Both the position numbers and the translations under genes were made by a program. This document shows positions 13,120 to 41,666 of a stretch of DNA of 44,987 nt, piece after piece (position 1 is the first letter of the stretch; each line of letters begins with the position of its first letter). Under the pieces are notes generated by a model. The model did not search any database, had not been told where the DNA came from, and saw only the letters and a program-made list of their open reading frames with translations. The DNA lies in the NCBI GenBank assembly GCA_002863145.1, contig PKDW01000171.1:1-44987 (forward strand), written 5' to 3'. The stretch comes from Flavobacteriales bacterium (GTDB lineage Bacteria > Bacteroidota > Bacteroidia > Flavobacteriales_D > Sanyastnellaceae).

Positions 13120-14604
13120 TCATTTCTGCTCAATGGCGCGGGCAGCAGCCTCAGCAGGGTCTTCTTTGGCTTTGTCTTCTTCCGGCTGGGCCACTCCGCA
13201 AAAGCCAAACAGGCAGTTTTCTTTGATGATGCGGTCGACAAAGTCGGGGACCATCGCCACCCAGTCCTCTCCACCGTTCTTGATGGATTCGAAAGCTGCT
13301 CGACTGAAGATGGACAGCACTTCAGGATCGAAATCGTGAATGTCAGTGATGCGCTTGTTGAAGGTGAGGTAATCGAACAGTGGCTTGAGTCGTGGATGGA
13401 TGGGGGTGGAGGTGGAGGTCCACAAGTCCCCTGATTCCTCGTCCTTCCAGGGGTAGAGCAGGATTTTGAGATCGCGCGAAAACAGGATGCCAAAGGCTTC
13501 CAAGATGCCGCCATTCAAATCGCGGTAGTAGCGCTCGTTGAAAATCTCCACGAGGGTGGATGCCCCCATGATGACCCCCATGCGTTTTTTGGTGTGGCGG
13601 GAGAAGAACTCCACCAACTTGTAGTACTTCTGGTAGTTGCTGATGAGCACCGTTTGGCCAATGCCACACAGTACATCTGCACGGTCGAGGAAGTCTTGTT
13701 CGTCAATGTCGCCCTCTGCACTGAGGTTGTTGAGTGTGATTTCGAACAACACCTGCAGGTTTTCAGGGTCGACCTTGGGCTCTTGCTTGAACTGCGCGAG
13801 GCCCTTGGCAATCATGTCGATGTTGACCTTGGTGACGGGACGGAAACTGCCTCGAATGGCCAAGATGTTCTTCTTGTACAAAACATCCGCCGCCTGTCGG
13901 TTGCGACCGTCAGGGGAGAAAATGACGGCATCCGTCATGCCTTGTTTGACGAGTTGAAGGGACATGAGACGGTTGTCGACTTCGGCGAAGTCGGGTCCGT
14001 TCATTTGGATCATGTCGATTTCCAGCTGGTCGCGACCCAAGTTGTCGTAAAGGCTCTGTAGCAGCTCTTTGGGGCGCTTGTAGAAGTAGAAGGCGCCGTA
14101 GATAAGGTTGACCCCGAGCATGCCCGTGGTTTGCTGTTGCAGCAAAGCGTCTTGCTCGTGAAAACGGGCGTGGAGCACAATCGTGTTGGGCTCGCTGGTC
14201 GCCGAGGTTTGAAACTTGATGCCGAACCAACCGTGACCTTGCGTGGTCTTGTGGTAGTTGATGGTGGCCACCGTATTCGCAAAAGCGAAGTATTGTTTCG
14301 TTGGGTGGTCGTCCCGCGTGATGCGCTCTTCAATCAGGCCGTATTCGTGTTCGAGCATCTTGTCGATGCGCGACTCGCACACATACCGTCCCTTGGCCTC
14401 CTTTCCATAAATGGCGTCACTGAAGTCCTTGTCGTAGGCGGAGATGGTCTTGACGATGGTGCCTGAAGCTCCGCCTGCACGGAAGAAGTGACGAACGACC
14501 TCTTGTCCAGCCCCGATCTCGGCGAAGGTGCCGTAGAGATCTTGGTTGAGGTTGATGCGAAGGGCCTTTTGCTTGGCCGAAAGAATGACGCGTTTCAAGT
14601 CCAC
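13120..14604 (-). CDS. Conserved protein of unknown function (494 aa)
   Basis: I do not recognise a characterised family. The product is soluble-looking: no signal peptide and no membrane span. It starts VDLKRVILSAKQKALRINLN and contains striking conserved-looking stretches, such as LYGTFAEIGAGQEVVRHFF then RAGGASGTIVKTISAYDK (about residues 23-59), ANTVATINYHKTTQGHGWFG (about 109-128) and IRGSFRPVTKVNIDMI (about 255-270). The C-terminus is charged and Ala/Glu-rich. The start is GTG at 14604. A perfect TACCTTTG -7 box at 14627-14634 leaves a 22-nt leader. My impression is that similar proteins are widespread in Bacteroidota, but I know no experiment on them. The gene is convergent with rpoC and divergent from the hydrolase operon at 14651. 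Confidence 0.85.
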   Translation of the reverse strand: MDLKRVILSAKQKALRINLNQDLYGTFAEIGAGQEVVRHFFRAGGASGTIVKTISAYDKDFSDAIYGKEAKGRYVCESRIDKMLEHEYGLIEERITRDDHPTKQYFAFANTVATINYHKTTQGHGWFGIKFQTSATSEPNTIVLHARFHEQDALLQQQTTGMLGVNLIYGAFYFYKRPKELLQSLYDNLGRDQLEIDMIQMNGPDFAEVDNRLMSLQLVKQGMTDAVIFSPDGRNRQAADVLYKKNILAIRGSFRPVTKVNIDMIAKGLAQFKQEPKVDPENLQVLFEITLNNLSAEGDIDEQDFLDRADVLCGIGQTVLISNYQKYYKLVEFFSRHTKKRMGVIMGASTLVEIFNERYYRDLNGGILEAFGILFSRDLKILLYPWKDEESGDLWTSTSTPIHPRLKPLFDYLTFNKRITDIHDFDPEVLSIFSRAAFESIKNGGEDWVAMVPDFVDRIIKENCLFGFCGVAQPEEDKAKEDPAEAAARAIEQK

Positions 14605-14638: not shown

Positions 14639-14646
14639 TACCTTCG
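14639..14646 (+). promoter_or_regulatory. -7 element TACCTTCG, leaderless spacing
   Basis: Five of the six fixed positions of TAnnTTTG. Its first base lies exactly 12 nt upstream of ATG 14651, leaving four bases before the start codon, so transcription should begin at or next to the ATG. Confidence 0.65.
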
Positions 14647-14650
14647 TGCC

Positions 14651-15493
14651 ATGAACGGCGCAGAGGTGAAGAGATTGTCTCGTTTGGTGTTCCTAGGTAC
14701 AGGGACGTCTCAAGGTGTGCCCATCATTGGGTGCGATTGTGAGACTTGCACGTCCTCCGACCCAAGGGACAAGCGCCTTCGGACCTCGGTGGCGTTGGAG
14801 TCGTCCTCTTCGAGGGTGGTGATTGACACAGGTCCGGATTTCCGAGCCCAAATGCTGCGCGAGGGCATTCGTCAACTCGATGCAGTGGTTTACACCCACG
14901 AGCACAAGGATCATTTGGCGGGAATGGATGACGTGCGTCCGTTCAATTACCTCCAAAAGTGCGCGATGACCCTCCATGCTTCGGACAGGGTGGAGGAGGC
15001 CCTGCGACGGGATTTTTACTACGCCTTCGACGAATTCAAACACGGCGGTGTGCCCGACGTTCAAGTGTCGCGCGTCGAGGACCACCAACCGTTCGAGGCG
15101 GGAGGGATGCATTGGCATCCATTGCCCATCATGCATGGCAAGTTGCCCATCCATGGCTTTCGCGTGGACAATGTGGCGTACATCACCGACGCCAGTCACA
15201 TTTCAGACGAAACGATGTCCCAATTGCATGGCTTGGAGGTGCTGGTGCTCAATGCCCTTCGTCCCCAACCTCATTACAGTCATTTCTCCCTGCCCGAAGC
15301 TTTGGAGGTGGCAGATCGCATTGGCGCCAAGCGCACCTACTTTACGCACCTCAGTCACCTGTTGGGACCGCACGAGAAGGCCGAGGCGAGCCTGCCCGAA
15401 GGAATCCGATTGGCGCACGACGGCTTGACGTTGGTACGAGAAGAGGGCATGTGGACAGAGGTGCCTTCACCTTGGACAAACCTTGTGCCATGA
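14651..15493 (+). CDS. Metallo-beta-lactamase-fold hydrolase, PhnP-like
   Basis: Cytoplasmic metal-dependent hydrolase of 280 aa. The N-terminal LVFLGTGTSQGVPIIGCDC (about 12-30) and the THEHKDH metal motif (about 82-88) resemble the PhnP/RNase Z-like branch that cleaves cyclic or linear phosphodiesters. Further ligands are probably His in PIMHGKLPIHGF and the Asp in YITDASHI. PhnP itself opens phosphoribosyl cyclic phosphate in phosphonate breakdown, but no phosphonate genes are nearby, so the substrate is unknown. The TGA stop overlaps the ATG of the next gene (ATGA), which indicates translational coupling with the acyltransferase. It is the first gene of a three-gene operon. Confidence 0.88.
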   Translation: MNGAEVKRLSRLVFLGTGTSQGVPIIGCDCETCTSSDPRDKRLRTSVALESSSSRVVIDTGPDFRAQMLREGIRQLDAVVYTHEHKDHLAGMDDVRPFNYLQKCAMTLHASDRVEEALRRDFYYAFDEFKHGGVPDVQVSRVEDHQPFEAGGMHWHPLPIMHGKLPIHGFRVDNVAYITDASHISDETMSQLHGLEVLVLNALRPQPHYSHFSLPEALEVADRIGAKRTYFTHLSHLLGPHEKAEASLPEGIRLAHDGLTLVREEGMWTEVPSPWTNLVP

Positions 15494-16380
15494 AGATGTT
15501 GTCTTGGCTGGGGCTCCTGCCCCGTTGGATGTTGACGTTGCTGGCGTGGAAAGTGACGGTGCTTGCTTTGCTTGTTGGAGGGTACCGCGGCAAGGTGGTT
15601 CGCGCCAACCTAAAGCGGGCCTTTCCGAACCTCTCTCGGGGAGAGCGATGGTGGAGATTTGCGGCATTCCAACGTCATTTCGCCCAATTGATGGTGGAGT
15701 CAGCCAAGCTCTTCACCATGTCACGGGCGGAAGTCGATGCAGGCATGCTTCACCATGGCAAAGAAGTGATGGATGCATTGCACGCTCGGGGCAAGCATGT
15801 GCTTGTGGCGGGAGGCCACATGAACAACTGGGAGTGGAGCGCCTTGACCTTGAACCAAAACCTGCCTTTCCGCACCATGGCCCTCTACAAGAAACTCAGC
15901 GACAAGAATGCGGAGAAGATGATGCGGGAGAGCCGTGGGCGATTTGGTCTTGAAATGGTCCGCACCAAAGAGGGCCGGGCTTGGATGAACGTGGCCCGAC
16001 ACGCCGATCCGGTCGCGGTCATCATGGGATTTGACCAAAGCCCCGCCGATCCAACCAAGTGCTGGTGGACCACCTTCCTTGGCACCGAGACGGCGGTCTT
16101 TTACGGGTTGGAGCAATGGTCCAAGATGTACGACATGGCGGTGGTCTATGCGAGCATTCGCCGCGTCGGACCTTGGAAATACACGTTGACGTACGAATTG
16201 ATTGCGGACGAGGTCAGCGATTTGCCCGAAGGCGAGGTGTTGGACCGTTGTTTGGCCAAACTCGAACGTGAAATCCACATGGATCCTTCGCGGTGGTTGT
16301 GGTCGCACAAACGTTGGAAGCACAAACGCCCGGCATCGCAGCCGTGCCATCCTCGCTGCCACAGCGCGTCACAGCCCTAA
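15490..16380 (+). CDS. LpxL/HtrB-type lysophospholipid (lipid A) acyltransferase
   Basis: Probable inner-membrane acyltransferase of 296 aa that adds a secondary acyl chain to lipid A or a related lipid. An N-terminal hydrophobic segment (about 3-34, LGLLPRWMLTLLAWKVTVLA) anchors it. The catalytic HX4E motif appears as HMNNWE near residue 113. FDQSP and WWTTFLGTETAVFYG (about 180-205) match the pattern of this family. ATG 15490 overlaps the preceding stop. The exact acceptor lipid cannot be read from sequence. The tail after RWLWSHKRWKHKRP is the normal family end plus a short Ser/His-rich extension. Confidence 0.9.
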   Translation: MKMLSWLGLLPRWMLTLLAWKVTVLALLVGGYRGKVVRANLKRAFPNLSRGERWWRFAAFQRHFAQLMVESAKLFTMSRAEVDAGMLHHGKEVMDALHARGKHVLVAGGHMNNWEWSALTLNQNLPFRTMALYKKLSDKNAEKMMRESRGRFGLEMVRTKEGRAWMNVARHADPVAVIMGFDQSPADPTKCWWTTFLGTETAVFYGLEQWSKMYDMAVVYASIRRVGPWKYTLTYELIADEVSDLPEGEVLDRCLAKLEREIHMDPSRWLWSHKRWKHKRPASQPCHPRCHSASQP

Positions 16381-16389
16381 GTTTGTCTC

Positions 16390-17676
16390 ATGCACGGCCA
16401 AGCACCTCTTGCGGAGCGAATGCGTCCCCAATCGTTGGACGCGTATGTGGGGCAGCAGCACCTCGTGGGCGAGGGGGCAGTCTTGCGCCGCGCCATGAAG
16501 GCAGGGACGTTGCCCAGCATGATTTTGTGGGGACCTCCCGGCGTGGGGAAAACCACACTTGCCCGATTGATTGCGGCCGAATCCGACCGTCCCTTTCACG
16601 CACTAAGTGCCATTCACAGTGGGGTGAAAGACGTGCGTGCCGTGTTGGATTTGGCCAAGCGCGATGGCATGTTTGCGGGGCGTGCGTTGTTGTTCATCGA
16701 CGAGATTCACCGGTTTTCGAAATCTCAGCAAGACAGTTTGCTCGGGGCTGTGGAAGCCGGGACCATCACCCTCCTTGGTGCCACGACGGAAAACCCTTCT
16801 TTTGAAGTTATCCCCGCCCTGCGGTCGAGATGCCAAACCTATGTGCTTGAATCCCTGTCCGCCGAGGTGTTGATGGGGTTGGTCCACCGCGCACTGAAGG
16901 AAGACGACAAGATGGCGCAACGCAAGGTGGAGATCGTGGAGGAAGAGGCCTTGCTGCGGGCAAGTGGGGGAGATGCCCGCCGCTTGCTCAACACCCTTGA
17001 GTTGGTGGTCAATGGACTGGAGCCCGACGAGAATGGGGAATGTATGCTGACCAACGAAGCGGTGACAGCGCGGGTACAGCAACCCCATTCGGGCTACGAC
17101 AAGGCTGGGGAGGCTCACTACGATGTGGTCAGTGCCTTCATCAAAAGCATCCGCGCCAGCGATCCCAACGCTGCGGTGTACTATTTGGCCCGCATGGTGG
17201 AAGGAGGGGAAGACCCCAAATTCATCGCCCGACGTTTGCTCATCGCCGCGTCAGAAGACATTGGCAACGCCAATCCCACGGCGCTGGTGTTGGCCAACAA
17301 CACCTTTCAAGCGGTGGAGCGCATCGGGTGGCCGGAGTCACGTATCATCCTTGCGCAGTGCACGGTGTATTTGGCCACCAGTGCCAAGAGCAATGCATCG
17401 TACAAGGCCATTGGACAGGCCCAAGAGTGGATCCGCACACACGGAGAAGCGCCCGTACCCTTGGCTTTGCGCAACGCACCCACGGGCATGATGAAGGACT
17501 TGGGGTACGGGGCGGGATATGCCTACGACCACGACGTGACGGTCGGATTCAGTGGCCAAGAGTGCCTCCCACAAGGCATGGAAGGCACCACGTTTTACAA
17601 GCCCGGCAACAACCCCCGAGAGCAGGCCGCGCTCGAATGGTTGAAAGCGCGTTGGGGCAACAAGTACGGCTACTGA
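16390..17676 (+). CDS. rarA: Replication-associated recombination protein RarA (MgsA), AAA+ ATPase
   Basis: RarA is a clamp-loader-like AAA+ ATPase acting at stalled replication forks. The 428-aa product begins PLAERMRPQSLDAYVGQQHL, with Walker A GPPGVGKTT (about 49-57), Walker B LLFIDEIHRF (about 101-110), sensor 1 GATTENPSFE and Arg finger LRSRC. The C-terminal tetramerisation domain includes SAFIKSIRASDPNAAVYYLARM and ASEDIGNA. The ATG follows the acyltransferase stop by 9 bases, so it is the third gene of the operon. The combination with an acyltransferase has no clear functional meaning. Confidence 0.96.
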   Translation: MHGQAPLAERMRPQSLDAYVGQQHLVGEGAVLRRAMKAGTLPSMILWGPPGVGKTTLARLIAAESDRPFHALSAIHSGVKDVRAVLDLAKRDGMFAGRALLFIDEIHRFSKSQQDSLLGAVEAGTITLLGATTENPSFEVIPALRSRCQTYVLESLSAEVLMGLVHRALKEDDKMAQRKVEIVEEEALLRASGGDARRLLNTLELVVNGLEPDENGECMLTNEAVTARVQQPHSGYDKAGEAHYDVVSAFIKSIRASDPNAAVYYLARMVEGGEDPKFIARRLLIAASEDIGNANPTALVLANNTFQAVERIGWPESRIILAQCTVYLATSAKSNASYKAIGQAQEWIRTHGEAPVPLALRNAPTGMMKDLGYGAGYAYDHDVTVGFSGQECLPQGMEGTTFYKPGNNPREQAALEWLKARWGNKYGY

Positions 17677-17721: not shown

Positions 17722-18867
17722 TCAATGGGTTTCCGTCCGTTCCAGGGCACCCATGTTGTAGTACTCGGTGTGCGTCAATTGCCCCGTGCTTGAATAGTGG
17801 TAGACTTGGCCATCGAGCTGCCCCGCGACGTATTCGCCTTCCCGGCTCAACTGCACGCCTTTCATGACCCTGCGCTGGAGTTGTTCTCCTGTGTCGGGAT
17901 CGGTGAACGTCTCCAAGACAAACCCACCCTGGTCGTGCCATTCTCGAAAGGGGCCGTCGAGCTTCTTGTCCCGGTAGTTGACTTCGGATTCTGGACGCTC
18001 TTCGCCATGCCATGTGGTGAAGGTGCCGTTGACCCGAATCGTTTCAATCAGGTTGCCTGCGCGGTACCGGTGGATGTGTTGCAGACGTCCGTCTTCGAGG
18101 TAAAACTTCCAGCTCCCTTCTTCGGCACCTTCGAGGTAATTCCCCTGACTCAAGCGGCCTCCGCTCTCGTAGTACGCCTCAAAAGGGCCGTCCAACGTGC
18201 CATCTCGGTAGGTGATTTTCTGCCGCAGCAGGCCGTTGTCATGCCAAGCGTTCCATTCGCCATGCATTTCACCACGGCGGTGATGGCCCCGTTCACAGAC
18301 GGCGCCGCTGGGCAGGTATCTCTCTTCCAGACCGTCTTTTTGGCCTTCGTCGTAGTGAATGACGGAAGTGAGGTTGCCTTTGTTTGAAAACAACGACCAT
18401 GCACCGTGTCGCACAGGCGTGACGGGCCTTGATTCAAGGGCCGCGCGTTGGAGCTTGAGGGCGGGGTGCAGGTATCCGCCTTGGGCGGTCACCTGGCCAT
18501 TCGCACTGAAGACGGTGGCGTCCGATTGTGTGTGGTCCTCCCTGTGCACGAGGTGCGTCAGGGCGGTGCCGCTTTCGCGGAAGTACCACCAGCTTCCCGT
18601 GGGGGTGCCGTGGTCAAATGTGCCGACGTAGTAGAGCTCCCCGGACCCGTACACCCGGACCCAAGGTCCATGTCTGAACCCTTCGTCGTCTGTGACATTG
18701 TAGTCCACCCCAAACGTTCCGGAAGGCCAAGCGTTGTGAGCCTCTAGGGGTCGATCGAACGGGGAGGCTTGGGACGTTTGGCCTGTGGACTGTGCCCAGA
18801 GTCCGTCAGAACACAGGACAATCAGGACAGACCCAGTGAGGACAAATGAGAACCAGTTGCGCTTCAT
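17722..18867 (-). CDS. Exported MORN-repeat (YwqK-type) protein
   Basis: A 381-aa protein with an N-terminal signal peptide (MKRNWFSFVLTGSVLIVLCS then DGLWAQ, cleavage probably near residue 26). The rest is a run of about ten variant MORN repeats of the type G.W..Y...G.L...G.Y, for example GPWVRVYGSGELYYVGTF, GSWKFYLEDGRLQHIHRY and GPFREWHDQGGFVLETF. Such proteins are labelled YwqK-family antitoxin in databases, but that name has little support and no toxin gene is adjacent. A beta-sheet surface or periplasmic protein is likely. No T9SS sorting domain is visible. The gene is convergent with rarA and divergent from mdh. Confidence 0.85.
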   Translation of the reverse strand: MKRNWFSFVLTGSVLIVLCSDGLWAQSTGQTSQASPFDRPLEAHNAWPSGTFGVDYNVTDDEGFRHGPWVRVYGSGELYYVGTFDHGTPTGSWWYFRESGTALTHLVHREDHTQSDATVFSANGQVTAQGGYLHPALKLQRAALESRPVTPVRHGAWSLFSNKGNLTSVIHYDEGQKDGLEERYLPSGAVCERGHHRRGEMHGEWNAWHDNGLLRQKITYRDGTLDGPFEAYYESGGRLSQGNYLEGAEEGSWKFYLEDGRLQHIHRYRAGNLIETIRVNGTFTTWHGEERPESEVNYRDKKLDGPFREWHDQGGFVLETFTDPDTGEQLQRRVMKGVQLSREGEYVAGQLDGQVYHYSSTGQLTHTEYYNMGALERTETH

Positions 18868-18871
18868 GGAA

Positions 18872-18879
18872 CAAAGATG
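18872..18879 (-). promoter_or_regulatory. -7 element CATCTTTG, leaderless spacing
   Basis: Matches TAnnTTTG at five of six fixed positions. Its first base is exactly 12 nt before ATG 18867, with TTCC between box and start codon. Confidence 0.6.
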
Positions 18880-22214: not shown

Positions 22215-22823
22215 TCATCGCAATGTCCGGGGGACGTACGCCAGGTCATCGAGGCCGATCACGGAACCATTCTCGGTGATGACATGGCCACTCCTCACGC
22301 GCGCTTCATTGGCCGTGATGCCGCCACGAGTGGAGATTTCGAGGGTGGTTCCCGCAAGCGTGGCGTGCGTGTCTTTCGACTTGAGGTCGTCGTAGGTCAG
22401 CGTCATGGGGATGACGTGGTTGCCCACAAAATCGTCGATCTCGTATTGGTTTCCTTCCTTGATCAAACGCAACCAAGGGACCCAGTTCTCAAATGCGTCA
22501 TCTGTGGGACAGAGAAGTGTCACCCCACTTGAGTGGATGGTCCGGCTCAGGCTTGAAGCCTTGACCAATTGCCCAAATCGGCTGTGTCGTTCCGTACTGA
22601 TGACGTAGCGATAGGGACTGATTTTGTTCTCGACTTTGACCTGGTTCATCTCCTGGAAACGATCCATGTCGCGGCCTTGACGCTCCATGTTGAGTCTTCC
22701 TGCGGGGCTCATTTTGGAAGCGGGATGGGGCAGGGCATCTGGGGCGGAATCGGTGCACCCCGTCAGGCAAATAAGAGCCACGAGACAGACGGCGATGGAG
22801 GCATGGAAAAGAGGTGTCTTCAT
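22215..22823 (-). CDS. Lipoprotein with a fasciclin (FAS1) domain
   Basis: A 202-aa exported lipoprotein. The signal sequence MKTPLFHASIAVCLVALICL ends in lipobox LTGC with the acylated Cys at residue 23. A linker of about 60 residues leads to a single FAS1 domain (about 75-198: FGQLVKASSLSRTIHSSG, TLLCPTDDAFENW, DFVGNHVIPMTLTYDDL, GHVITENGSVIGLDDL). FAS1 domains mediate adhesion or ligand binding. The frame is open far upstream into pckA on the other strand, but ATG 22823 is the only start that places a signal peptide first. A weak -7 box (TACCTTAC, 22828-22835) begins 12 nt before it. Confidence 0.88.
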   Translation of the reverse strand: MKTPLFHASIAVCLVALICLTGCTDSAPDALPHPASKMSPAGRLNMERQGRDMDRFQEMNQVKVENKISPYRYVISTERHSRFGQLVKASSLSRTIHSSGVTLLCPTDDAFENWVPWLRLIKEGNQYEIDDFVGNHVIPMTLTYDDLKSKDTHATLAGTTLEISTRGGITANEARVRSGHVITENGSVIGLDDLAYVPRTLR

Positions 22824-22901
22824 GAGGGTAAGGTAAGGAGGCGAGGTGGGTCCGTGGATGGTTTGTGAACAACGCATTGAACCGCAACGGTGACCGTGCT
22901 G

Positions 22902-22940: not shown

Positions 22941-24563
22941 ATGATGAAACACGTTGGAAACACCCCCTTCGACGCGCGTTTGGATGCCGTCGGACTCCAA
23001 GGAGTGGGCCGAGCCCACTGGAACCTTCCCCCTGCCAAACTCATTCTTCAAACCCTCCTTCGTGGCGAAGGCGTCTTGACCGACCAAGGTGCGCTGGCCA
23101 TTGAAACAGGGGAATTTACTGGACGGTCCCCCAAGGACCGTTTTTTGGTGGAAGACGAAATCACGGCCAACAGGGTGGATTGGGGAAGCATCAACCAACC
23201 CATGTCGTCCGAGGCGTTTCAGACCTTGTTGCAGGACGTGCAAAGGCACCTCAAGGGCCGAAGCGTGTTTGTGAAGGATGCCGCCGTGGGGGCGGATGAA
23301 CGGTACCGCATTCCCGTGCGCGTGGTGGCCGAGAAGGCTTGGTCTTCCTTGTTTGTCGACAACATGTTCATTCGCCTCACCGACCAAGAGCGGTGGGTGG
23401 CCGAACCCGATTGGCATGTCATTTGTGCGCCGAGTTTCAAAGCGGTTCCCGCCAAGCACGGGTGCCGTCAAAGCAACGTGAGTGCCATTGACTTTGGCCG
23501 TAAAATCATCATTGTGGCAGGTTCCGGGTACACGGGTGAAATCAAAAAGGGCATGTTCTCGGTGATGAACTTCATCTTGCCTGTGCAGCACGACGTCTTG
23601 CCCATGCACTGTTCCTCCAACCAAGATGAACAAGGCAATGTGGCGGTGTTTTTTGGCCTTTCAGGTACGGGGAAGACCACGCTGAGCAGCGACCCCAACC
23701 GCGCATTGATCGGGGACGATGAGCATGGCTGGACCGAAGAGGGTGTGTTCAACATGGAGGGCGGATGCTATGCCAAAACCATCGACCTCAGCCCGGAGGG
23801 AGAGCCTGAAATTCACCAGGCCATTCGCTTCGGTGCGCTTCTCGAGAACATTGGATTCGAAGAAGACTGTGTGACTCCCAACTACGCGGACGACAGCATC
23901 ACACCCAACACGCGTGTGAGTTACCCCATTTTTCACATTCCTGGAGCCGTGACCCCCAGTGTGGGAGGACATCCCACGGACATTTTCTTTCTGACCTGCG
24001 ATGCCTTTGGCGTGTTGCCTCCGTTGTCCCGGCTGGACAAGGGTCAAGCGATGTACCATTTCTTGTCGGGTTACACCGCCAAGGTGGCGGGAACTGAAGC
24101 AGGTGTGGTGGAACCCCAAACCACCTTCTCTGCGTGCTTTGGTGCGCCGTTCCTGCCGCTCCATGCCACGGAATACGCAAGCATGCTCGGTGAACGCGTG
24201 ACCCAGCAAGGCGTGCGCTTGTGGCTCGTCAACACCGGCTGGACCGGAGGTGGTTACGGCGTGGGGCACCGCATGAAGTTGTCCCATACCCGTGCCATGA
24301 TTGCCGCAGCCCTTCGTGGGGACCTAGACGCGGTGGAGACCACCATCCACCCCGTGTTCAAACTCGCAGTGCCCGTGGGATGCGAAGGCGTGCCCAATGA
24401 ACTCTGGGACGTGAAAGGCACATGGGGGGATGGCGCAGCGTATGACATGGCTGCCCAAGAGTTGGCGTCTCGCTTTGCGGACAATTTCACGCAATTCGAA
24501 GAAGCTGCCACAGCCGAGATGAAGGCGGGTGCGCCTCTTGTGACCGCGGTGTCGCAAGCTTGA
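22941..24563 (+). CDS. pckA: Phosphoenolpyruvate carboxykinase (ATP)
   Basis: Converts oxaloacetate plus ATP to phosphoenolpyruvate, CO2 and ADP, the entry to gluconeogenesis. The 540-aa product has the ATP-enzyme length and motifs: ETGEFTGRSPKDRFLVED (about 57-74), the kinase-1a P-loop GLSGTGKTTLSSDP (about 238-251), the metal-binding LIGDDEHGW (about 256-264) and LVNTGWTGGGYGVGHRMKL (about 428-446). The start could be ATG 22941 or ATG 22944 (ATGATG). It is divergent from the fasciclin lipoprotein, with rsmE 33 bases downstream under its own promoter. Confidence 0.97.
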   Translation: MMKHVGNTPFDARLDAVGLQGVGRAHWNLPPAKLILQTLLRGEGVLTDQGALAIETGEFTGRSPKDRFLVEDEITANRVDWGSINQPMSSEAFQTLLQDVQRHLKGRSVFVKDAAVGADERYRIPVRVVAEKAWSSLFVDNMFIRLTDQERWVAEPDWHVICAPSFKAVPAKHGCRQSNVSAIDFGRKIIIVAGSGYTGEIKKGMFSVMNFILPVQHDVLPMHCSSNQDEQGNVAVFFGLSGTGKTTLSSDPNRALIGDDEHGWTEEGVFNMEGGCYAKTIDLSPEGEPEIHQAIRFGALLENIGFEEDCVTPNYADDSITPNTRVSYPIFHIPGAVTPSVGGHPTDIFFLTCDAFGVLPPLSRLDKGQAMYHFLSGYTAKVAGTEAGVVEPQTTFSACFGAPFLPLHATEYASMLGERVTQQGVRLWLVNTGWTGGGYGVGHRMKLSHTRAMIAAALRGDLDAVETTIHPVFKLAVPVGCEGVPNELWDVKGTWGDGAAYDMAAQELASRFADNFTQFEEAATAEMKAGAPLVTAVSQA

Positions 24564-24584: not shown

Positions 24585-24592
24585 TACCTTTG
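24585..24592 (+). promoter_or_regulatory. -7 element TACCTTTG for rsmE, leaderless spacing
   Basis: Perfect TAnnTTTG match starting exactly 12 nt before ATG 24597. A possible -33 TTG lies at 24560-24562 (22-bp spacer). No room for a ribosome binding site, so a leaderless mRNA is expected. Confidence 0.75.
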
Positions 24593-24596
24593 CGTC

Positions 24597-25307
24597 ATGC
24601 ACACGTGTTTTCATCCTGATCTCCAGGTTGGCGTTTCGCCTCTTTCAGAAGAGGAAGCGCTGCACGTTGTCCGTGTGTTGCGGATGACCGAAGGTCAGAC
24701 CGTCAGGCTCATCGATGGCGTTGGCGGGGAGGCCGTTGGAACCTTGACTGCGGTGGGAAAGAGAAAGGCGTCTGTGCACGTGGAGCACGTGGACAGGGAA
24801 GAGGCCCGGCCTCCAGGATTGACCTTGGTGGTGGCACCCACCAAGTCGTCCGACCGCTTTGAGTGGTTGCTTGAAAAAGCGACCGAGCTGGGTGTGGAGG
24901 AGGTGATTCCCGTCTGGACGCAACGAAGTGAACGTCGGGTAGACAAGCGCGAACGCTGGCGCAAGGTGGTGGTCGCAGCCACGAAGCAAAGCCACCGTAC
25001 GTGGATGCCCATGTTGCACCCCGCCTGTGCTCTGGAACAGGTGTTTGACGCACATCCTCAGTTGACGAGCAGGGCAGGTGCCGTGGCCCATTGCATGACC
25101 GCGTGTGACAACACCCCGAAGCGTGTCGCCTGGCCATTGTGGCAAGAAGGCCAAAACCACGCTTGGATCGCCATTGGTCCCGAGGGGGATTTCACTGCAG
25201 AAGAGGTGCAGTGGATGACCTCCCAGGCTGCGACACCCGTCCACCTGGGCGAGCTGAGGTTGCGGACTGAAACGGCAGGGATGGCCGCCGTGGCTCAGTT
25301 CATGTGA
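24597..25307 (+). CDS. rsmE: 16S rRNA (uracil-1498-N3)-methyltransferase
   Basis: Methylates N3 of U1498 in 16S rRNA using S-adenosylmethionine. The 236-aa product has an N-terminal PUA-like domain (about 1-70, with HVVRVLRMTEGQTVRLIDG) and a C-terminal SPOUT methyltransferase domain with the knot. Key motifs are KSSDRFEWLLEKATELGVEE (about 82-101), AIGPEGDFTAEEV (about 192-204) and LRLRTETAGMAAV near the end. The usual GPEGG reads GPEGD here. It follows pckA but has its own promoter. Confidence 0.95.
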   Translation: MHTCFHPDLQVGVSPLSEEEALHVVRVLRMTEGQTVRLIDGVGGEAVGTLTAVGKRKASVHVEHVDREEARPPGLTLVVAPTKSSDRFEWLLEKATELGVEEVIPVWTQRSERRVDKRERWRKVVVAATKQSHRTWMPMLHPACALEQVFDAHPQLTSRAGAVAHCMTACDNTPKRVAWPLWQEGQNHAWIAIGPEGDFTAEEVQWMTSQAATPVHLGELRLRTETAGMAAVAQFM

Positions 25308-25337: not shown

Positions 25338-25345
25338 TATCTTTG
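25338..25345 (+). promoter_or_regulatory. -7 element TATCTTTG, near-leaderless spacing
   Basis: Perfect TAnnTTTG match starting 13 nt before ATG 25351, one base further than the usual 12. An out-of-frame ATG at 25346 directly follows the box. Confidence 0.7.
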
Positions 25346-25350
25346 ATGGA

Positions 25351-27336
25351 ATGTGGTCTCTCCGTCCGTTGTTGCGTGCAGCCCTCCTCCTCATCGGTTG
25401 GTGGGTCTGGTTGGGCCATGAAGGTGCCCTGGGCCAAGGGACTACGGGGGACCTTGACTTGGACGTGATGGTTCCGCCTGGTGGGGTGTTGGACGACGGA
25501 GCACCTGCAGGTTGGCCTGTGCAGTCGGGTGATTTGCTGCTGTCACTGGTCCAAAGCCCCACAAGCATGTTCGCCACGCTCGTCGACGACGAAGCCAACT
25601 TGACATGGGCTTCGCAAACGCCGTTTCGTGGATTTTACATGAAACCATGGGGTCCCGGTGAATTCGTGTGGTACAACTACACCTTGCGAAAGTGGACCGT
25701 GGTGGACGCCGCGTTCAACCCGCTGGACACCTTGACCCAAACGTTTGCCCCAGACGACGATTACCACGATGTTCATCGCTTCGAGGACGGGACCTATCTC
25801 GTGGTGCTGCTCGAGGAGGTGTTTGAAGATTTAACCAGCATCGGGGGCCTTTCGAACGCCAAGATTCTCAACCCTCGTCTGCTGCATTTGGACCCGCAAG
25901 AACAAATCCTCCAAGAGTGGAGCGGCCTTGACCACATGCCTGTGGATCCCAGTGTCGACAACCTCGATTTTGCGGTTGTAGACCACTTGCATTGGAACGC
26001 CGTGCAATTGGATGAACACGGCGGGATTCTTTTGAGCATTCGCAACCGAAACCAAATCGTGCGCCTCAGGCCCGAAGATTGGTCCATTCATTGGAAACTT
26101 GGGGGAGAAGACAGCGATTTCAGCCTCAACGATCCGGGGTGGGACGGTTTCCACCTTCAACACGACGTTCACGACGTGGGCAACGGTCGGATTTTGATGT
26201 TTGACAATGGCGTGTTGGACAACAATGGATTTTTGTCGAGGGCGCTGGAGCTCACCCTCGATACCGTGAATTTCACGGCCCAGAATACTTGGCAGTTTGC
26301 CCATCCAAGTGACCTTTACGCCGCTGCACAGGGCAGTGCCATTCGCCTTGAAAACGGCAACACCCTCATCGGTTGGGGCACGGCAGAAACGAGCGAATTC
26401 GGGACCCGTGTCACGGAAGTGACGCCCGAAGGCCACATTGCATTTGAAGTGCGTTTGACCGACGGCTCGACGTTGTACAGGGCGAGAAAGTACGCCACGG
26501 GGATGCTCTCCGGCTGCACCGCAGAAAGCGCCGTCAATGTGTCCAATTCTCCGTGGTTGCTCGACGCAGACGATTGCACGTTTGACCTCGACGAAGATGG
26601 ATGGACCGACGAAGACGGCGACTGCGATGACGCCGATGCCGCGGTTTATCCTGGGGCCAACGACATTCCGCTCGACGGCATCGACCAAGATTGCGATGGG
26701 GTGGACGCTGTCCCAGGATGCACGGATGCCGCCGCAACCAACTTTGATTCGGAAGCGTCGGTCGCCGACGGCTCATGCACCTACTTGACGTTGTTCAAGG
26801 TGGACATTTCCAATGAGGAGGGCGGAGGATGGGACGTCTTGGCATGTGGACTGGAGTGGACGTCTGTCTCCGACGCTGGTTTTGAAAATGCGTCCACGGT
26901 GATGCCGACCAATGCGGCATGGGAAACGGCGCAATTTTCCTTGGCACTGGGCTTGGGGTTGCATGCCTATCGGTTTGTTCGACCCGATGGGGTTGCCGAA
27001 GTGGACGCGCGAACCCTCGCCATCGAAGGCGGGGCGAGTCTGGTCGATGCAGGGGTGGTGTGTTTCAACGAGGAGTTCGTTTGCCCGGGATGCACAGACC
27101 CGATGGATGTGGCTTACAATCCTTGGGCAGTGACCGATGAAGGGTGCGAAGGATGGTCTGTGGCTGGCTGCACCTATCCCGAGGCGACCAACTACAGCAC
27201 AGATGCGAACGACGACGACGGCACGTGCACCTTTGAACAAGGCAGTGCTTGCACCGGGGATTTGGATGGAGATGGCAGCGTGAGCGTGGGCGACCTCATG
27301 GAGATGTTGGTCGCGATGGGCAGCACCTGCGATTGA
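25351..27336 (+). CDS. Secreted arylsulfotransferase-like protein with metal-binding and dockerin-like repeats
   Basis: A 661-aa exported protein. A signal peptide spans about 1-28 (ends EGALGQG). Residues about 50-400 resemble the arylsulfotransferase (ASST, Arylsulfotran_2) beta-propeller family: HLHWNAVQLDEHGGILLSIR, then WSIHWKLGGEDSDF and FHLQHDVHDVGNGRILMFDN. After this come an Asp-rich metal-binding-type motif (about 415-452: DEDGDCDDADAAVYPGAND, IDQDCDGVD), GCTDAAATNFD-type cysteine repeats, and a dockerin-like end (GDLDGDGSVSVGDLMEMLVA). No canonical T9SS sorting domain is seen. Substrate unknown; many family members have no shown sulfotransferase activity. Its stop codon directly abuts that of the convergent DUF551 gene. 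Confidence 0.82.
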   Translation: MWSLRPLLRAALLLIGWWVWLGHEGALGQGTTGDLDLDVMVPPGGVLDDGAPAGWPVQSGDLLLSLVQSPTSMFATLVDDEANLTWASQTPFRGFYMKPWGPGEFVWYNYTLRKWTVVDAAFNPLDTLTQTFAPDDDYHDVHRFEDGTYLVVLLEEVFEDLTSIGGLSNAKILNPRLLHLDPQEQILQEWSGLDHMPVDPSVDNLDFAVVDHLHWNAVQLDEHGGILLSIRNRNQIVRLRPEDWSIHWKLGGEDSDFSLNDPGWDGFHLQHDVHDVGNGRILMFDNGVLDNNGFLSRALELTLDTVNFTAQNTWQFAHPSDLYAAAQGSAIRLENGNTLIGWGTAETSEFGTRVTEVTPEGHIAFEVRLTDGSTLYRARKYATGMLSGCTAESAVNVSNSPWLLDADDCTFDLDEDGWTDEDGDCDDADAAVYPGANDIPLDGIDQDCDGVDAVPGCTDAAATNFDSEASVADGSCTYLTLFKVDISNEEGGGWDVLACGLEWTSVSDAGFENASTVMPTNAAWETAQFSLALGLGLHAYRFVRPDGVAEVDARTLAIEGGASLVDAGVVCFNEEFVCPGCTDPMDVAYNPWAVTDEGCEGWSVAGCTYPEATNYSTDANDDDGTCTFEQGSACTGDLDGDGSVSVGDLMEMLVAMGSTCD

Positions 27337-32544: not shown

Positions 32545-33557
32545 GAAGATGGGTTGTCCCAAACGCCCTCAATGCGCGCCCGGGGAATGAAAGACGCTTC
32601 ACGCGCCCATTCGTTGCATTGCGCCAATGTTTCAAGAGAAATGCCGAGGTGGCTCATGACGTTTCGGCATTCGTCCATCAGGTGGATGTCCATGACGCCG
32701 GGGTCGTCGGTGTTGAGGGTCGTACGTACGCCGCGGTCAAGCAATCGCTTGAACGGGTGGCCCGCCAAGGAGGGAACGGCTTGGGTCAGGACGTTGCTCC
32801 AAGGACACAATTCGAGGGGGATGCGGTCGCGCACCAAACGTGCGATGACTTCCTCGTCATGAATGGCTTGCACGCCATGACCAATGCGGTCCGCCCCCAG
32901 GTCGTCCAACGCCACGAGGACGTTTCGCGCACAGCCCATTACCGCAGGTTCTCCTGCATGTACGGTGATGCCCAAGCCTTGCGCCTTCGCCTTTTGAAAC
33001 AAAGGCGCAAAGGGTTGGGCGGGGTAATTCACCTCGTCGTCGGCCAAATCCAACCCTACAAAATGCGCTTTCCGTTCCAAAATCCAGTCGCACCAGCGCG
33101 CATTGTCCTCCACGCTCTTGATGCGTTGAAGCAAGCCAATGAGGCCGACCACCATGGGGAATTCACGCTCCGCCCGGGCCACCCCGCATTGAATCGCTTC
33201 GAGCATGCGGTCGGCATCCATCCGAGGGTGGGCGTCGAGAAGGAAGGAGGGAGCGTAACGCAGTTCAAGCACGCGGACGTTGCTGATTTGGTGCATGTCC
33301 GCACACACCTCATACGTCAATTGCTCCACTTTGTCTTCCGTGTCAATGACATCGCGGGTGTTCAAGAATTTGTGGAGGACGGAGGGCAAATCTTCCATGG
33401 GGGACTTCACCAAGAAGGCCTCGTCAAATGCCGCGTCGTCGCTCACGTCCATGCCGCGATCCACGGCCCAGCGCTTCAGGGTTGACCGGCGAAAGGCCAA
33501 CTCCAAGTGGCAATGCAATTCGACTTTGGGCAACGAGAAAAGGGCGGCATCCGACAT
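32541..33557 (-). CDS. add: Adenosine deaminase family protein
   Basis: Probable deaminase converting adenosine to inosine (purine salvage). The 338-aa product has all metal and catalytic motifs: KVELHCHLELAF (about 12-23), TVHAGEPAV (about 200-208), DRIGHGVQAIHDEEV (about 222-236) and TLNTDDPGVMD near residue 285. The frame extends to 33638 inside smpB, but ATG 33557 (MSDAALFSLPKVELH) is the family start and has a weak -7 box 12 nt upstream. It is the first gene of the operon that continues into the two ASST-like genes. Related deaminases acting on adenine or other purines share these motifs, so the substrate is likely but not certain. Confidence 0.9.
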   Translation of the reverse strand: MSDAALFSLPKVELHCHLELAFRRSTLKRWAVDRGMDVSDDAAFDEAFLVKSPMEDLPSVLHKFLNTRDVIDTEDKVEQLTYEVCADMHQISNVRVLELRYAPSFLLDAHPRMDADRMLEAIQCGVARAEREFPMVVGLIGLLQRIKSVEDNARWCDWILERKAHFVGLDLADDEVNYPAQPFAPLFQKAKAQGLGITVHAGEPAVMGCARNVLVALDDLGADRIGHGVQAIHDEEVIARLVRDRIPLELCPWSNVLTQAVPSLAGHPFKRLLDRGVRTTLNTDDPGVMDIHLMDECRNVMSHLGISLETLAQCNEWAREASFIPRARIEGVWDNPSS

Positions 33558-33561
33558 GTGA

Positions 33562-33569
33562 CGAAGTTC
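33562..33569 (-). promoter_or_regulatory. Weak -7-like element GAACTTCG before add
   Basis: Only four of six fixed positions of TAnnTTTG match, but it starts exactly 12 nt before ATG 33557, the same spacing as the good boxes. Confidence 0.4.
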
Positions 33570-33603: not shown

Positions 33604-33611
33604 TAACTTTG
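33604..33611 (+). promoter_or_regulatory. -7 element TAACTTTG for smpB, leaderless spacing
   Basis: Perfect TAnnTTTG match starting exactly 12 nt before ATG 33616; four bases (CTTC) separate box and start codon. Confidence 0.75.
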
Positions 33612-33615
33612 CTTC

Positions 33616-34056
33616 ATGGCTGTGGAGATCAAGAACAAGAAGGCATCCTACACGTATTTCCTGACGGACGATTTCACGGGAGGATTGGTGCTGTCCGGTT
33701 CGGAAATCAAGTCCATTCGCCGAGGCAAGGCGAGCATCACGGAATCGTATTGCCGCTTTGAAAAGGGAGAGTTGTGGGTGTACAACATGTACGTCGCCGA
33801 ATACCCCAACGCCGGGTACATGCCGCAAGACCCGCGCCGCAAGCGCAAACTTCTGCTGCAGCGCACCGAGCTCAAGAAATTGGAGAAGAAGGTGAAAGAT
33901 GTGGGGGTGACGCTCGTCCCGACGCTGCTTTTCATTGCAAGCAGTGGCTATGCCAAGCTCAAATTTTCTGTGGCGAAAGGCAAGAAGCTGCACGACAAGC
34001 GGCAAGCGCTCAAGGACAAGGACATTTCACGCGACTTGGCGCGCATGACGAACTGA
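33616..34056 (+). CDS. smpB: SsrA-binding protein SmpB
   Basis: SmpB binds tmRNA and brings it to stalled ribosomes for trans-translation. The 146-aa product shows the family pattern: EIKNKKASYTYFLTDDFTGG (about 4-23), SGSEIKSIRRGKASITESYC (about 27-46), YMPQDPRRKRKLLLQRTELK (about 68-87) and the basic C-terminal tail KGKKLHDKRQALKDKDISRD that enters the mRNA channel. The tmRNA gene itself is not in this window. It is divergent from add and convergent with the unknown gene at 34082. Confidence 0.97.
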   Translation: MAVEIKNKKASYTYFLTDDFTGGLVLSGSEIKSIRRGKASITESYCRFEKGELWVYNMYVAEYPNAGYMPQDPRRKRKLLLQRTELKKLEKKVKDVGVTLVPTLLFIASSGYAKLKFSVAKGKKLHDKRQALKDKDISRDLARMTN

Positions 34057-34081: not shown

Positions 34082-34660
34082 TCAGGCCTGCTCCTCAGAG
34101 GGCGCCAACACCACGCGGTACTGGTCCACGAAGTCTTCCCAGTCCCAGAGGAAGTGCTCCATCAATTCGCGCAGGTTCTTCTGCAAAATGGGGTTGGGCA
34201 CGTTCATGTCACGGAAGTAAGGCTCCTGGTGGGCAATCACACCGTACTTGTAGCAGACGGCTCGGGTCATCGCTGTCAAGGTGTTTTTGCTCGGACGGTT
34301 GATTTCCTTCATGAAGTTGCGGAATTCCTTCACCTTGCGGGCAAAGGATTCAGGTGGAAGGCCAAGGGCAAACCCAAACTTCGCGCAGCAACGCTGAATG
34401 ATGGCACGGTCCACGCCCGGATCAAAATGCTTGGGGATCAGGCTGAGGTTGGCCGAGACAACAATCATCAGGAACTTTCCGTAGTCGTCCTCGTTCAATT
34501 GGGGACAGCTGTCAAACTCGGGGGCCGCATTCAAAAAGGCAGCCACCTGGGGCCAACCTTGCTCGACTGTCTCGAACGAGGTGTTGACGAAAATGTTCGC
34601 CACCTGTTCGTCGGTGAGTTTTTTCTTTGAAAGCCAGCTGAGTAGTCCCAGGTTCTTCAT
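34082..34660 (-). CDS. Hypothetical protein (192 aa)
   Basis: I do not recognise the family. The 192-aa product has no signal peptide and no clear membrane span. It is mostly helical-looking with an N-terminal LLSWLSKKKLTDEQVANIFV, a middle KFLMIVVSANLSLIPKHFD and a C-terminal LRELMEHFLWDWEDFVDQYR. The start ATG 34660 is supported by a perfect TAGCTTTG box ending 10 bases upstream. It is divergent from pyrD, with two DnaA-box-like sequences in the shared upstream region. Codon use looks like its neighbours, so it is likely a real resident gene. Confidence 0.78.
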   Translation of the reverse strand: MKNLGLLSWLSKKKLTDEQVANIFVNTSFETVEQGWPQVAAFLNAAPEFDSCPQLNEDDYGKFLMIVVSANLSLIPKHFDPGVDRAIIQRCCAKFGFALGLPPESFARKVKEFRNFMKEINRPSKNTLTAMTRAVCYKYGVIAHQEPYFRDMNVPNPILQKNLRELMEHFLWDWEDFVDQYRVVLAPSEEQA

Positions 34661-34670
34661 CCTTGGGATT

Positions 34671-34678
34671 CAAAGCTA
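34671..34678 (-). promoter_or_regulatory. -7 element TAGCTTTG for the hypothetical gene 34082-34660
   Basis: Perfect TAnnTTTG match, 10 bases upstream of ATG 34660, giving a very short leader. Confidence 0.7.
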
Positions 34679-34767: not shown

Positions 34768-34775
34768 TACCTTTG
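34768..34775 (+). promoter_or_regulatory. -7 element TACCTTTG for pyrD, leaderless spacing
   Basis: Perfect TAnnTTTG match starting exactly 12 nt before the GTG start at 34780. It supports this GTG as the true start. No clear -33 TTG is seen at the usual distance. Confidence 0.75.
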
Positions 34776-34779
34776 CGCT

Positions 34780-35802
34780 GTGTACGAAAAAGTCCTCAAA
34801 CCCCTGTTTTTCCTGATGTCTCCGGAGCGTGCGCACTACGCCGCCATGGACCTTCTCGTGTTCGCGTCTCGCGTCCCGGGAGTGTCGTGGTGGATGAAGC
34901 GGCGTGCGGCAAAACGCAACGAAGGACGCGAGGTGACGGTGGCGGGTCTGACGTTTCCCAACCCCGTCGGATTGGCGGCGGGCTTCGACAAGGACGCGCG
35001 CTGGTTGCCGGCGTTGGAGATGCTTGGGTTTGGGTTTGTGGAGATCGGCACCCTTACCCCACGTGCCCAAAGTGGCAACCCCCAACCCAGGCTGTTTCGA
35101 CTGAAAGAGGACCGCGGCATCCTCAACCGCATGGGATTCAACAACGACGGATTGTACCCTGCTGCCGGGCGTTTGGTCCGCCGTCCCAAGGGACTCGTGG
35201 TCGGCGGGAACATTGGGAAGAACAAGATCACGCCCAACGACAAAGCGGTGGAAGATTACCTCGCATGCGTGGATGCGCTCCATCCGCACGTCGATTACTT
35301 CGTAGTCAATGTAAGTTCGCCTAACACACCGGGATTGAGAGAGTTGCAAGACAAGGAACCGTTGGCGAAGTTGTTGCGGGCCGTGGTGGAACGCAACCAT
35401 TCCCATCCCGGTCATCGCCCCGTGTTTTTGAAGATTGCACCTGACTTGACGGATGGTCAGCTGGACGACATCGTACAGATCGTCCAAGAAGAAAAGGTGG
35501 ACGGCGTCGTGGCGACCAACACGACCATCTCACGTGCGGGACTTGTGACGCCTGAACAAGAGGTCGAAGACATGGGGCCTGGGGGTGTGAGTGGCGCACC
35601 TGTGCGGGCCCGTGCCACGGAGGTGGTGCGTCATCTCGCCGAGCGCAGTGAAGGTCGTTTCCCCATCATTGGTGTGGGCGGGATTGACAGCGCGGAAGCG
35701 GCCCAAGAGAAGTTGGATGCCGGGGCTTGTTTGGTGCAAGTCTACTCGGGCATGGTTTACGAAGGGCCTGGTTTGCCAGCCCGGATTGTCGCGGGGCTCT
35801 GA
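34780..35802 (+). CDS. pyrD: Dihydroorotate dehydrogenase (quinone), class 2
   Basis: Oxidises dihydroorotate to orotate in pyrimidine synthesis, passing electrons to membrane quinone through FMN. The 340-aa product has the class 2 N-terminal extension (VYEKVLKPLFFLMSPERAHY, amphipathic helices for membrane contact), then FPNPVGLAAGFDKDARWLPA, the catalytic-Ser segment VVNVSSPNTPGLRELQ (about 178-193), FLKIAPDLTD, VATNTTISR and phosphate-binding GVGGIDSAEAA and VYSGMVYEGP. The start is GTG 34780. Convergent with the hydrolase gene at 35822. Confidence 0.96.
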   Translation: MYEKVLKPLFFLMSPERAHYAAMDLLVFASRVPGVSWWMKRRAAKRNEGREVTVAGLTFPNPVGLAAGFDKDARWLPALEMLGFGFVEIGTLTPRAQSGNPQPRLFRLKEDRGILNRMGFNNDGLYPAAGRLVRRPKGLVVGGNIGKNKITPNDKAVEDYLACVDALHPHVDYFVVNVSSPNTPGLRELQDKEPLAKLLRAVVERNHSHPGHRPVFLKIAPDLTDGQLDDIVQIVQEEKVDGVVATNTTISRAGLVTPEQEVEDMGPGGVSGAPVRARATEVVRHLAERSEGRFPIIGVGGIDSAEAAQEKLDAGACLVQVYSGMVYEGPGLPARIVAGL

Positions 35803-36692: not shown

Positions 36693-36700
36693 TGAAGGTA
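36693..36700 (-). promoter_or_regulatory. -7-like element TACCTTCA, leaderless spacing
   Basis: Four of six fixed positions of TAnnTTTG, including TA and TT, starting exactly 12 nt before ATG 36688. Confidence 0.5.
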
Positions 36701-36722: not shown

Positions 36723-36730
36723 TACCTTTG
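36723..36730 (+). promoter_or_regulatory. -7 element TACCTTTG for purB
   Basis: Perfect TAnnTTTG match, 17 bases before ATG 36748. The oppositely directed box for the hydrolase is 22 bp away. Confidence 0.75.
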
Positions 36731-39954: not shown

Positions 39955-39962
39955 GACCTTTG
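39955..39962 (+). promoter_or_regulatory. -7 element GACCTTTG, leaderless spacing
   Basis: Five of six fixed positions of TAnnTTTG, starting exactly 12 nt before ATG 39967. It supports 39967 over upstream in-frame ATGs. Confidence 0.6.
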
Positions 39963-40532: not shown

Positions 40533-41654
40533 CTATTTTTTTTGCTTCGCACGTTGTTCGTTGGCCTCGTCACCTTGCACCCGGATGCTTTCTTCGTGCA
40601 CCGAGGTCAAGATTTTGGACAGGAATTCGCGGCTGAGTCCCAATTCGCTTCCCCAGGCCGTTCGGCTTGCGATGATCTCTCGCCAACGGGCGACACTCAG
40701 CAGGGACCAACGGTTCTTGTGCTTGATGGTGCCGATGGCTTTGGCGAGTTCCATGCGACGGCCGAGCAATTGCATCAGCTGTTCGTCGACGCTGTCAATT
40801 TGCAAGCGCATGCCTTCCAAGGCGTCGCGGTCGCCGTTGCTTTCACTCCCCGCAGAGGGCACATCCAGGGTTTCGAGCAGACGGTGCAGCGCGTCTGGCG
40901 TGATCTGTTGCTCGGCGTCGCTCAGGGCACATGAAGGATTGGGGTGGGATTCCAGCATGAGGCCGTCCATGCCCAAATTCATCGCGCGCTGCGCCACGTC
41001 TTGCAACAGGTCGGGACGTCCCGCGATGTGAGAGGGGTCGCACAGCATTGGCAATTCGGACATCTCGGCCTTCAAGGCAATGGGGATTTCCCACATGGGG
41101 GCATTGCGGAAGTCGTTTTTGCCGTAGCTCGAGAAGCCTCGGTGCAAGGCGCCCACTTCGCCTTCCACGGCGTGTTCGATGCGCTCGATGGCCCCCATCC
41201 AGAGCTTCAAATCGGCGTGCATGGGGTTCTTGACGAGCACCGTGGCTTGAACCCCGCGAAGGGCGTCGGCCAAGGCTTGGACCGCGAATGGGCTCACGGT
41301 CGTACGCGCCCCAATCCACATGGCGGTCATGCCCGCTTCGAGCACGGCCTCCACGTGCGCTGGGGTGGCGACCTCCGTCATGGCGTGAAGTCCCGTCTCG
41401 CGCTGGGCCTCCATGAGCCATGGAAGGGCTTCAATCCCTCTCCCTTCAAAGCTGTTGGGCCGGGTGCGCGGCTTCCACAAGCCGGCGCGCAGGAAGTCAA
41501 CGTGTCCCTGTTGCGCCAGGGCACGTGCGACCTCCAGGACTTGTTCACGTTATTCGGCGCTGCAAGGGCCACCAATGACCACAGGCTGACCCTCACGCTT
41601 GAACAGCGTGGGCACTTGCCCGGAAGGGGCACTGAAGAGTTCTCCTTGAACCAC
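40533..41654 (-). pseudogene. Bifunctional DAHP synthase/chorismate mutase, interrupted by in-frame TAA
   Basis: Intact, this would be a 373-aa enzyme: DAHP synthase, the first step of aromatic amino acid synthesis, fused to an AroQ-type chorismate mutase (about 280-373, from MRLQIDSVDEQLMQLLGRRM). DAHP motifs are PVVIGGPCSAE, GLWKPRTRPNSFEG, VLVKNPMHAD and DPSHIAGRPDL. Codon 35, straight after GPCSAE, is TAA (41550-41552). The same frame continues with REQVLEVARALAQQGHVDFL and the rest of the enzyme. The start is GTG 41654, with a TATTTTTC -7 box 12 nt upstream. A restart at TTG 41480 gives an open frame 40533-41480, but it would lack the first active-site strand. It could be a recent nonsense mutation or a sequence error. 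Confidence 0.88.
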
Positions 41655-41658
41655 GGCT

Positions 41659-41666
41659 GAAAAATA
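41659..41666 (-). promoter_or_regulatory. -7 element TATTTTTC, leaderless spacing
   Basis: Five of six fixed positions of TAnnTTTG, starting exactly 12 nt before GTG 41654 of the DAHP synthase/chorismate mutase gene. Confidence 0.55.

Follow-up and report, generated by a model that had tools for sequence, protein, structure and literature searches.

A -7 promoter box at a fixed distance of 12 nt from the start codon points to frequent leaderless messages in an uncultured Flavobacteriales lineage

The window, the stretch of 44,987 nt analyzed here, is contig 5 of a 2.14-Mb assembly (94% complete, 187 contigs; hereafter G000). The RpoB of this genome is closest to those of MAGs named Flavobacteriales or Cryomorphaceae (81% to RI_182). 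At a number of genes in the window, a box of the form TAnnTTTG begins exactly 12 nt upstream of the start codon (position -12). Perfect boxes, matching at all six fixed bases, precede rsmE (24597-25307, +; 16S rRNA m3U1498 methyltransferase; TACCTTTG at 24585-24592, ATG at 24597), smpB (33616-34056, +; TAACTTTG at 33604-33611, ATG at 33616), and pyrD (34780-35802, +; quinone-dependent dihydroorotate dehydrogenase; TACCTTTG at 34768-34775, GTG at 34780). The three genes are predicted to be leaderless, and pyrD would have a GUG start. The NCBIfam matches of RsmE and PyrD begin at residue 1, and SmpB is matched over nearly its full length by both NCBIfam and Pfam. The first-pass annotation of this DNA had named these three boxes as the perfect cases at -12, but its list lacked a fourth, TAAGTTTG at 16378-16385 (+), which precedes a gene for a RarA/MgsA-type AAA ATPase (ATG at 16390). 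The TAA of this fourth box (16378-16380) doubles as the stop codon of the upstream gene.

All other boxes listed in that annotation are also present, but not all of them are conserved. With one mismatch (5/6), TACCTTCG at 14639-14646 (+) lies at -12 of an MBL-fold hydrolase gene (ATG at 14651), and CATCTTTG at 18872-18879 (-) at -12 of a gene for a secreted MORN-repeat protein (ATG at 18867), where the box and its spacing are identical in the congener G007. The 5/6 box GACCTTTG at 39955-39962 (+) is located at -12 of a DUF983 gene (ATG at 39967), but the G007 ortholog has its 5/6 box at -11; the start of the DUF983 gene itself is uncertain, with an alternative at 39880. The remaining 5/6 box, TATTTTTC at 41659-41666 (-), belongs to a DAHP synthase/chorismate mutase gene (40533-41654, -; GTG at 41654). 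At first sight this start seems misplaced, since only 34 codons precede an in-frame TAA (41550-41552), which is either a nonsense mutation or an assembly error. The copies in the congeners G007 and G006 are uninterrupted and retain the box at -12 and -13, respectively, both upstream of ATG. Three boxes at -12 have two mismatches (4/6). The weak box TACCTTAC at 22828-22835 (-) precedes a fasciclin-domain lipoprotein gene (ATG at 22823), the weak box GAACTTCG at 33562-33569 (-) an adenosine deaminase gene (ATG at 33557), and TACCTTCA at 36693-36700 (-) a YtnP-like lactonase gene (ATG at 36688). The lactonase gene has a 5/6 box at -12 in G007, whereas no box is found at -12 of the adenosine deaminase gene in the same congener, and the latter is doubtful as a genuine case. 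A perfect box at -13, TATCTTTG at 25338-25345 (+), is found upstream of an arylsulfotransferase-like gene (ATG at 25351). No -12 box was found at the genes of the rpl/rpo region of the window.

Leadered promoters in the same window provide a contrast. A perfect box at 34671-34678 (-) lies at -18 of the gene starting at 34660 and is unchanged at -18 in G007, and a perfect TACCTTTG at 36723-36730 (+) lies at -25 of the gene starting at 36748, also -25 in G007. The box of the gene starting at 22941 is at -39 in both the window and the congener. Since these boxes are kept at -18, -25, and -39, leader length is conserved gene by gene. In the window alone, gene calls blind to the motif gave only three cases at -12 and one at -13, because several starts were placed too far downstream. 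The proof of the pattern comes from the genome-wide count and from the relatives rather than from the window.

The gene-based test covered 1.13 Mb of G000 (58% G+C; 865 genes). The gene caller used codon usage only and was blind to upstream sequence, so that the starts were chosen without the motif. A box was counted when at least five of the six fixed bases matched, and the expected count was the mean over distances from -45 to -20. A box begins exactly at -12 in 83 of the 865 genes, against 5.8 expected (P ~2e-64), and perfect boxes at this distance number 23 against 1.5 (P ~1e-19). The measured background (5.8/865 = 0.67%) is near the 0.46% (19/4096) that the first-pass annotation had calculated as the chance of at least five matches at one distance. 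That annotation had also named a sharp genome-wide peak at -12 as the computational check of its proposal; such a peak is found in this genome and in relatives (G006, G001, G007, G013, and G024). The distance is fixed as it had proposed, except that the box also occurs, less often, at -13 (28 further genes); about three genes have it at -11 and about two at -10. Beyond -14, a low and broad distribution of leadered promoters extends to about -45. Because there are almost no boxes closer than -12, the boxes end where the transcript would begin losing its start codon. Independently of gene calls, the pattern TANNTTTGN4ATG occurs 63 times in the whole genome, compared with 7 occurrences when the box is placed six bases further out (-18) and 5 of the reversed pattern.

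The 83 sites share the consensus T A n C T T [T/C] G, and 92% of them have C at -1; G is infrequent at the two variable positions of the box (10% and 5%). The fixed base at -6 is T in 55% and C in 39% (a TAnCTTCG variant), a share of C that is partly due to the one mismatch allowed. The C form of the box predominates at smpB across the genus. The first-pass annotation had described the -33 element (TTTG) as weak at most sites, and no signal near -33 was detectable in the 83 sites. The missing -33 element does not exclude membership in the sigma-A-Bfr class, because it is not evident in Flavobacterium johnsoniae either (PMC6847099). At seven of the 83 sites, the TAA of the box apparently doubles as the stop of the preceding gene, leaving a 9-nt gap (16378-16380 in the window; L016, L019, L043, L046, L054, and L055). 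Two divergent gene pairs carry a -12 box on each side. Those of L017 (883-1749, -, and 1781-2254, +) are 31 nt apart, those of L065 (ending at 13487, -, and starting at 13522, +) are 34 nt apart, and about 7-10 nt are left between the opposed boxes.

Comparison of orthologs shows that the box is selected at its place in a promoter-like manner. Within the genus, the relative has a box at -12 or -13 in 18 of 20 ortholog pairs with a -12 box in G000, but in only 7 of 121 pairs without one (P 3e-15); the corresponding figures for two other genera of the family are 5 of 8 and 4 of 52. In the genus pairs, the fixed positions are kept in 100% (-8), 90% (-7 and -5), 85% (-12 and -11), and 60% (-6), and the flanking positions -4 and -2 in 50%. 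For smpB, a box with at least five matches is at -12 in all 10 genus members and in 9 of 14 other family genera, down to ~55% protein identity. The pyrD genes of the genus all start with GTG and have the box at -12 (8 of 8 members); 9 of 14 other family genera, whose pyrD starts are ATG or GTG, have it at -12 or -13. For rsmE, the start can be read in 8 genus members, all of which carry the box at -12 or -13; among 11 other genera, 6 carry it at -12. Nothing else in the 45 nt upstream of these three genes is conserved within the genus, and the flanking DNA changes. Outside the family but within the order, the smpB and pyrD boxes mostly stand at greater distances from the start codon: -16 to -35 for the best pyrD box, and for smpB -15 to -23 in some families, with -12 or -13 in others. 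This shift of an intact box relative to the start codon between families is the behavior of a promoter, not of a ribosome signal.

In F. johnsoniae, the nearly invariant bases of the box relative to the mapped transcription start are T-12, A-11, T-8, T-7, T-6, and G-5, and 4 or 5 nt separate the box from the start site (PMC6847099), which agrees with the first-pass statement that transcription in Bacteroidota begins a few bases after this box. Given start sites 4-5 nt past the box, the messages considered here should have leaders of 0-1 nt. We propose that each box serves as the -7 element of a housekeeping promoter of the sigma-A-Bfr type found in Bacteroidota, and that the fixed spacing would make RNA polymerase initiate at the start codon's first base (0-nt leader), with a leader of 0-1 nt for a box at -13. 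The messages would then be leaderless, and ribosomes would presumably load on the 5'-terminal AUG or GUG with no contacts upstream of it, as judged from leaderless messages in other bacteria. By analogy with F. johnsoniae, the RNA 5' end is very likely at the start codon, although the spacing carried over from Flavobacterium could differ here by 1-2 nt. We regard the explanation as a whole, leaderless messages arising from sigma-A-Bfr-type -7 boxes at a fixed distance, as highly probable. Polymerases usually prefer a pyrimidine before a purine at the start, and the C-1/A+1 context fits this preference; its support for the start site is weak, because C is frequent at -1 whatever the gene, being found directly before the start codon in 66% of G000 genes, operon-internal ones included. 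Two congeners have C at -1 in 56-63% of genes and other genera of the family in 45-50%, compared with 28% for the near named MAGs and 11% for a Flavobacteriaceae set.

The start codons of the tested genes are correct, and it is extremely unlikely that they are misplaced in such a way that the box heads a short leader and translation begins at a downstream codon. NCBIfam alignments extend from the first residue or two of RsmE and PyrD and from within a few residues of the start of SmpB, the YtnP-like lactonase, and the RarA-type ATPase; that of adenosine deaminase begins at about residue 8. A clear signal peptide directly follows the start at 18867, and a lipoprotein signal peptide follows that at 22823, which supports the latter start. 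The start codon and the next codon are conserved across ortholog pairs. Such misplacement would be in line with the family match of the MBL-fold hydrolase (14651), which begins only at residue 11, and with the later starts preferred for several genes by the motif-blind caller, but the genome-wide peak at -12 itself emerges from motif-blind starts. A bias from in-frame stops, by which TAA or TAG at -12 closes the frame, was rejected as a source of the peak: with stop-containing boxes removed, 50 cases remain at -12 against ~4 elsewhere. Alternative in-frame starts with a box outnumber those out of frame by 34 to 2, a count that was set aside as evidence because in-frame Tyr-Leu-Arg codons mimic the box.

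The position of the genes bears on two further alternatives. Divergent genes carry a -12 box at rates of 11-23% depending on spacing (36/256 overall), with the highest rate in those less than 50 nt apart (11/48). Among same-strand genes, the rate is ~11-16% for gaps of 0-19 and 30-79 nt, 2% for gaps of 20-29 nt, and ~5% for gaps of more than 80 nt, and it falls to 1.9% (3/154) at overlapping genes. The near absence at overlapping genes indicates a promoter rather than a translation signal. A translation-initiation signal, AT-rich or Kozak-like at -12 within a leader that starts further upstream, would be compatible with the preference of Bacteroidota for A/T near -12/-13 upstream of starts (PMC3155529), with their Kozak-like bases (PMC6847099), and with a weak enrichment of A at -12/-11 that is also seen in the genes without a box in this genome. 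The element is, however, a complete -7 promoter consensus including the G at -5, is commonest at divergent genes, and stands intact at other distances upstream of smpB and pyrD in other families, all of which makes such a signal very improbable. It is also conceivable that the -12 promoter is real but minor, and that the protein is made mostly from leadered or polycistronic messages transcribed from a promoter further upstream. As first described, the box is found at the first genes of transcription units, but it also occurs at some genes in tight same-strand clusters: for 18 of the 83 genes, a same-strand upstream gene is less than 30 nt away or overlaps, and these close-packed genes may also be co-transcribed with that gene. 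Nevertheless, the highest rate is that of closely spaced divergent genes, which have little room for a second promoter, and smpB, rsmE, and pyrD have no other conserved part in the 45 nt upstream within the genus. We consider a merely minor role of the -12 promoter unlikely.

On the translation side, Shine-Dalgarno sites are not in use: GGAGG at -18 to -5 occurs in 0.3% of genes, below its rate further upstream. The leaderless-type genes coexist with leadered genes that also have no Shine-Dalgarno site, among them those of the rpl/rpo region of the window. Of eight 16S genes from the family, seven have an intact anti-Shine-Dalgarno core; the 16S 3' end of L283 (G383) reads ATCTCC in this region instead of the ACCTCC of other members. 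The genus assemblies examined yielded no 16S gene. Ribosomal protein bS21 is present in 9 of 11 genus assemblies, several of these incomplete. Judging from these sequences, nothing in the anti-Shine-Dalgarno region or bS21 points to a missing part of the translation machinery.

Boxes at -12 or -13 are found at ~15% of the genes leading transcription units (61/400) and at 11-13% of all genes, shares that are likely low because the caller misplaces some starts, that of rsmE among them. After background correction, divergent genes show an excess of 53 boxes with five or more matches at -12 to -14, compared with 51 at -15 to -90; for perfect boxes alone, the excess is 19 and 31, respectively. Thus ~40-50% of the recognizable promoters of such genes lie at the leaderless distance, which is apparently the commonest single placement among recognizable promoters in this lineage. 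In F. johnsoniae, 87% of leaders are longer than 10 nt and 13% are 10 nt or shorter (PMC6847099). In F. psychrophilum, 5.5% of messages are leaderless, and in Bacteroides thetaiotaomicron, 3.7% of leaders are shorter than 10 nt (source group PMC6847099, PMC9723704, and PMC7366714). The comparison with these published 4-13% of short leaders is indirect, because they were measured on RNA and the present values are derived from sequence.

The trait is strongest in the family of G000 and occurs more weakly elsewhere. Counts of the pattern at -12 and -18 are 685 and 101 in its own genus (11 genomes), 1253 and 365 in 14 other genera of the family, and 1220 and 637 in 15 genomes from other families of the order. 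When the genomes with at least 20 hits in a 296-genome sample of the phylum are ranked by their -12/-18 ratio, G000 comes first (63/7). Three Flavobacterium genomes gave pattern counts of 119, 121, and 145 against reversed controls of 99, 65, and 109. Profiles of the rpoB region in named relatives show no -12 peak in most groups, but they say little because the rpoB region of G000 has none either.

The leaderless genes of Actinobacteria and Deinococcus-Thermus (PMC3160421; Shell et al. 2015, PMC4633059) resemble the present ones in the fixed promoter distance that places the transcription start on the start codon, in the lack of a Shine-Dalgarno site, and in the large share of genes involved, but they use a Pribnow-type TA-box, whereas this lineage uses the Bacteroidota -7 box TAnnTTTG. 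The survey of Zheng et al. (2011; PMC3160421) was restricted to Pribnow-like signals, and it detected leaderless genes in 1 of its 37 Bacteroidetes/Chlorobi genomes (2.4%). With the sigma-A-Bfr promoters of Flavobacterium and Bacteroides (PMC6847099, PMC9723704, PMC7366714), the present boxes share the -7 consensus, the scarcity of G at the variable positions, and the lack of a clear -33 element; the start site of those promoters is 4-5 nt downstream. The lineage studied here differs from them in the frequent C at -6 (TTCG) and in the high share of recognizable divergent-gene promoters at the leaderless distance. Non-canonical AT-rich initiation in the FCB group (StartLink/GeneMarkS-2, PMC9581028; Prevotella, PMC3155529) is similar in that Shine-Dalgarno sites are not used. 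The StartLink/GeneMarkS-2 grouping (PMC9581028) treats the clade as leadered with AT-rich sites; the present lineage has, in addition, a large class of leaderless genes.

Leaderless genes as such are already known, and what is new is how frequent they are in this lineage; no earlier report of a Bacteroidota lineage rich in them was found in a literature search of limited extent. Leaderless organization has been reported as rare or minor in Bacteroidota, and it is predicted to be frequent in this uncultured Flavobacteriales lineage. For Bacteroidota, which lack Shine-Dalgarno sites, leaderless messages had been set aside as a main answer to the question of how ribosomes locate their starts, on the basis of Flavobacterium and Bacteroides data. 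Since one lineage is rich in leaderless genes and its relatives differ in the trait, the change from leadered to leaderless messages is open to gene-by-gene study within one phylum. Tentatively, genes at the head of transcription units throughout this Flavobacteriales family might use leaderless initiation as a main mode. The -7 box would then have been moved to the start codon one gene at a time, starting from leadered ancestors, and the C that precedes the start codon of most genes would be part of the same change in ribosomal initiation; we hold this broader view to be possible rather than probable. As a practical use, the -12 box could help to fix start codons in these genomes.

A similar excess is seen in a distant family, f34, which belongs to another class of the phylum: its nine genomes (G109, G139, G166, G181, G185, G193, G216, G224, and G312) contain 360 patterns at -12 and 79 at -18, and f34 is possibly an independent leaderless-rich lineage.
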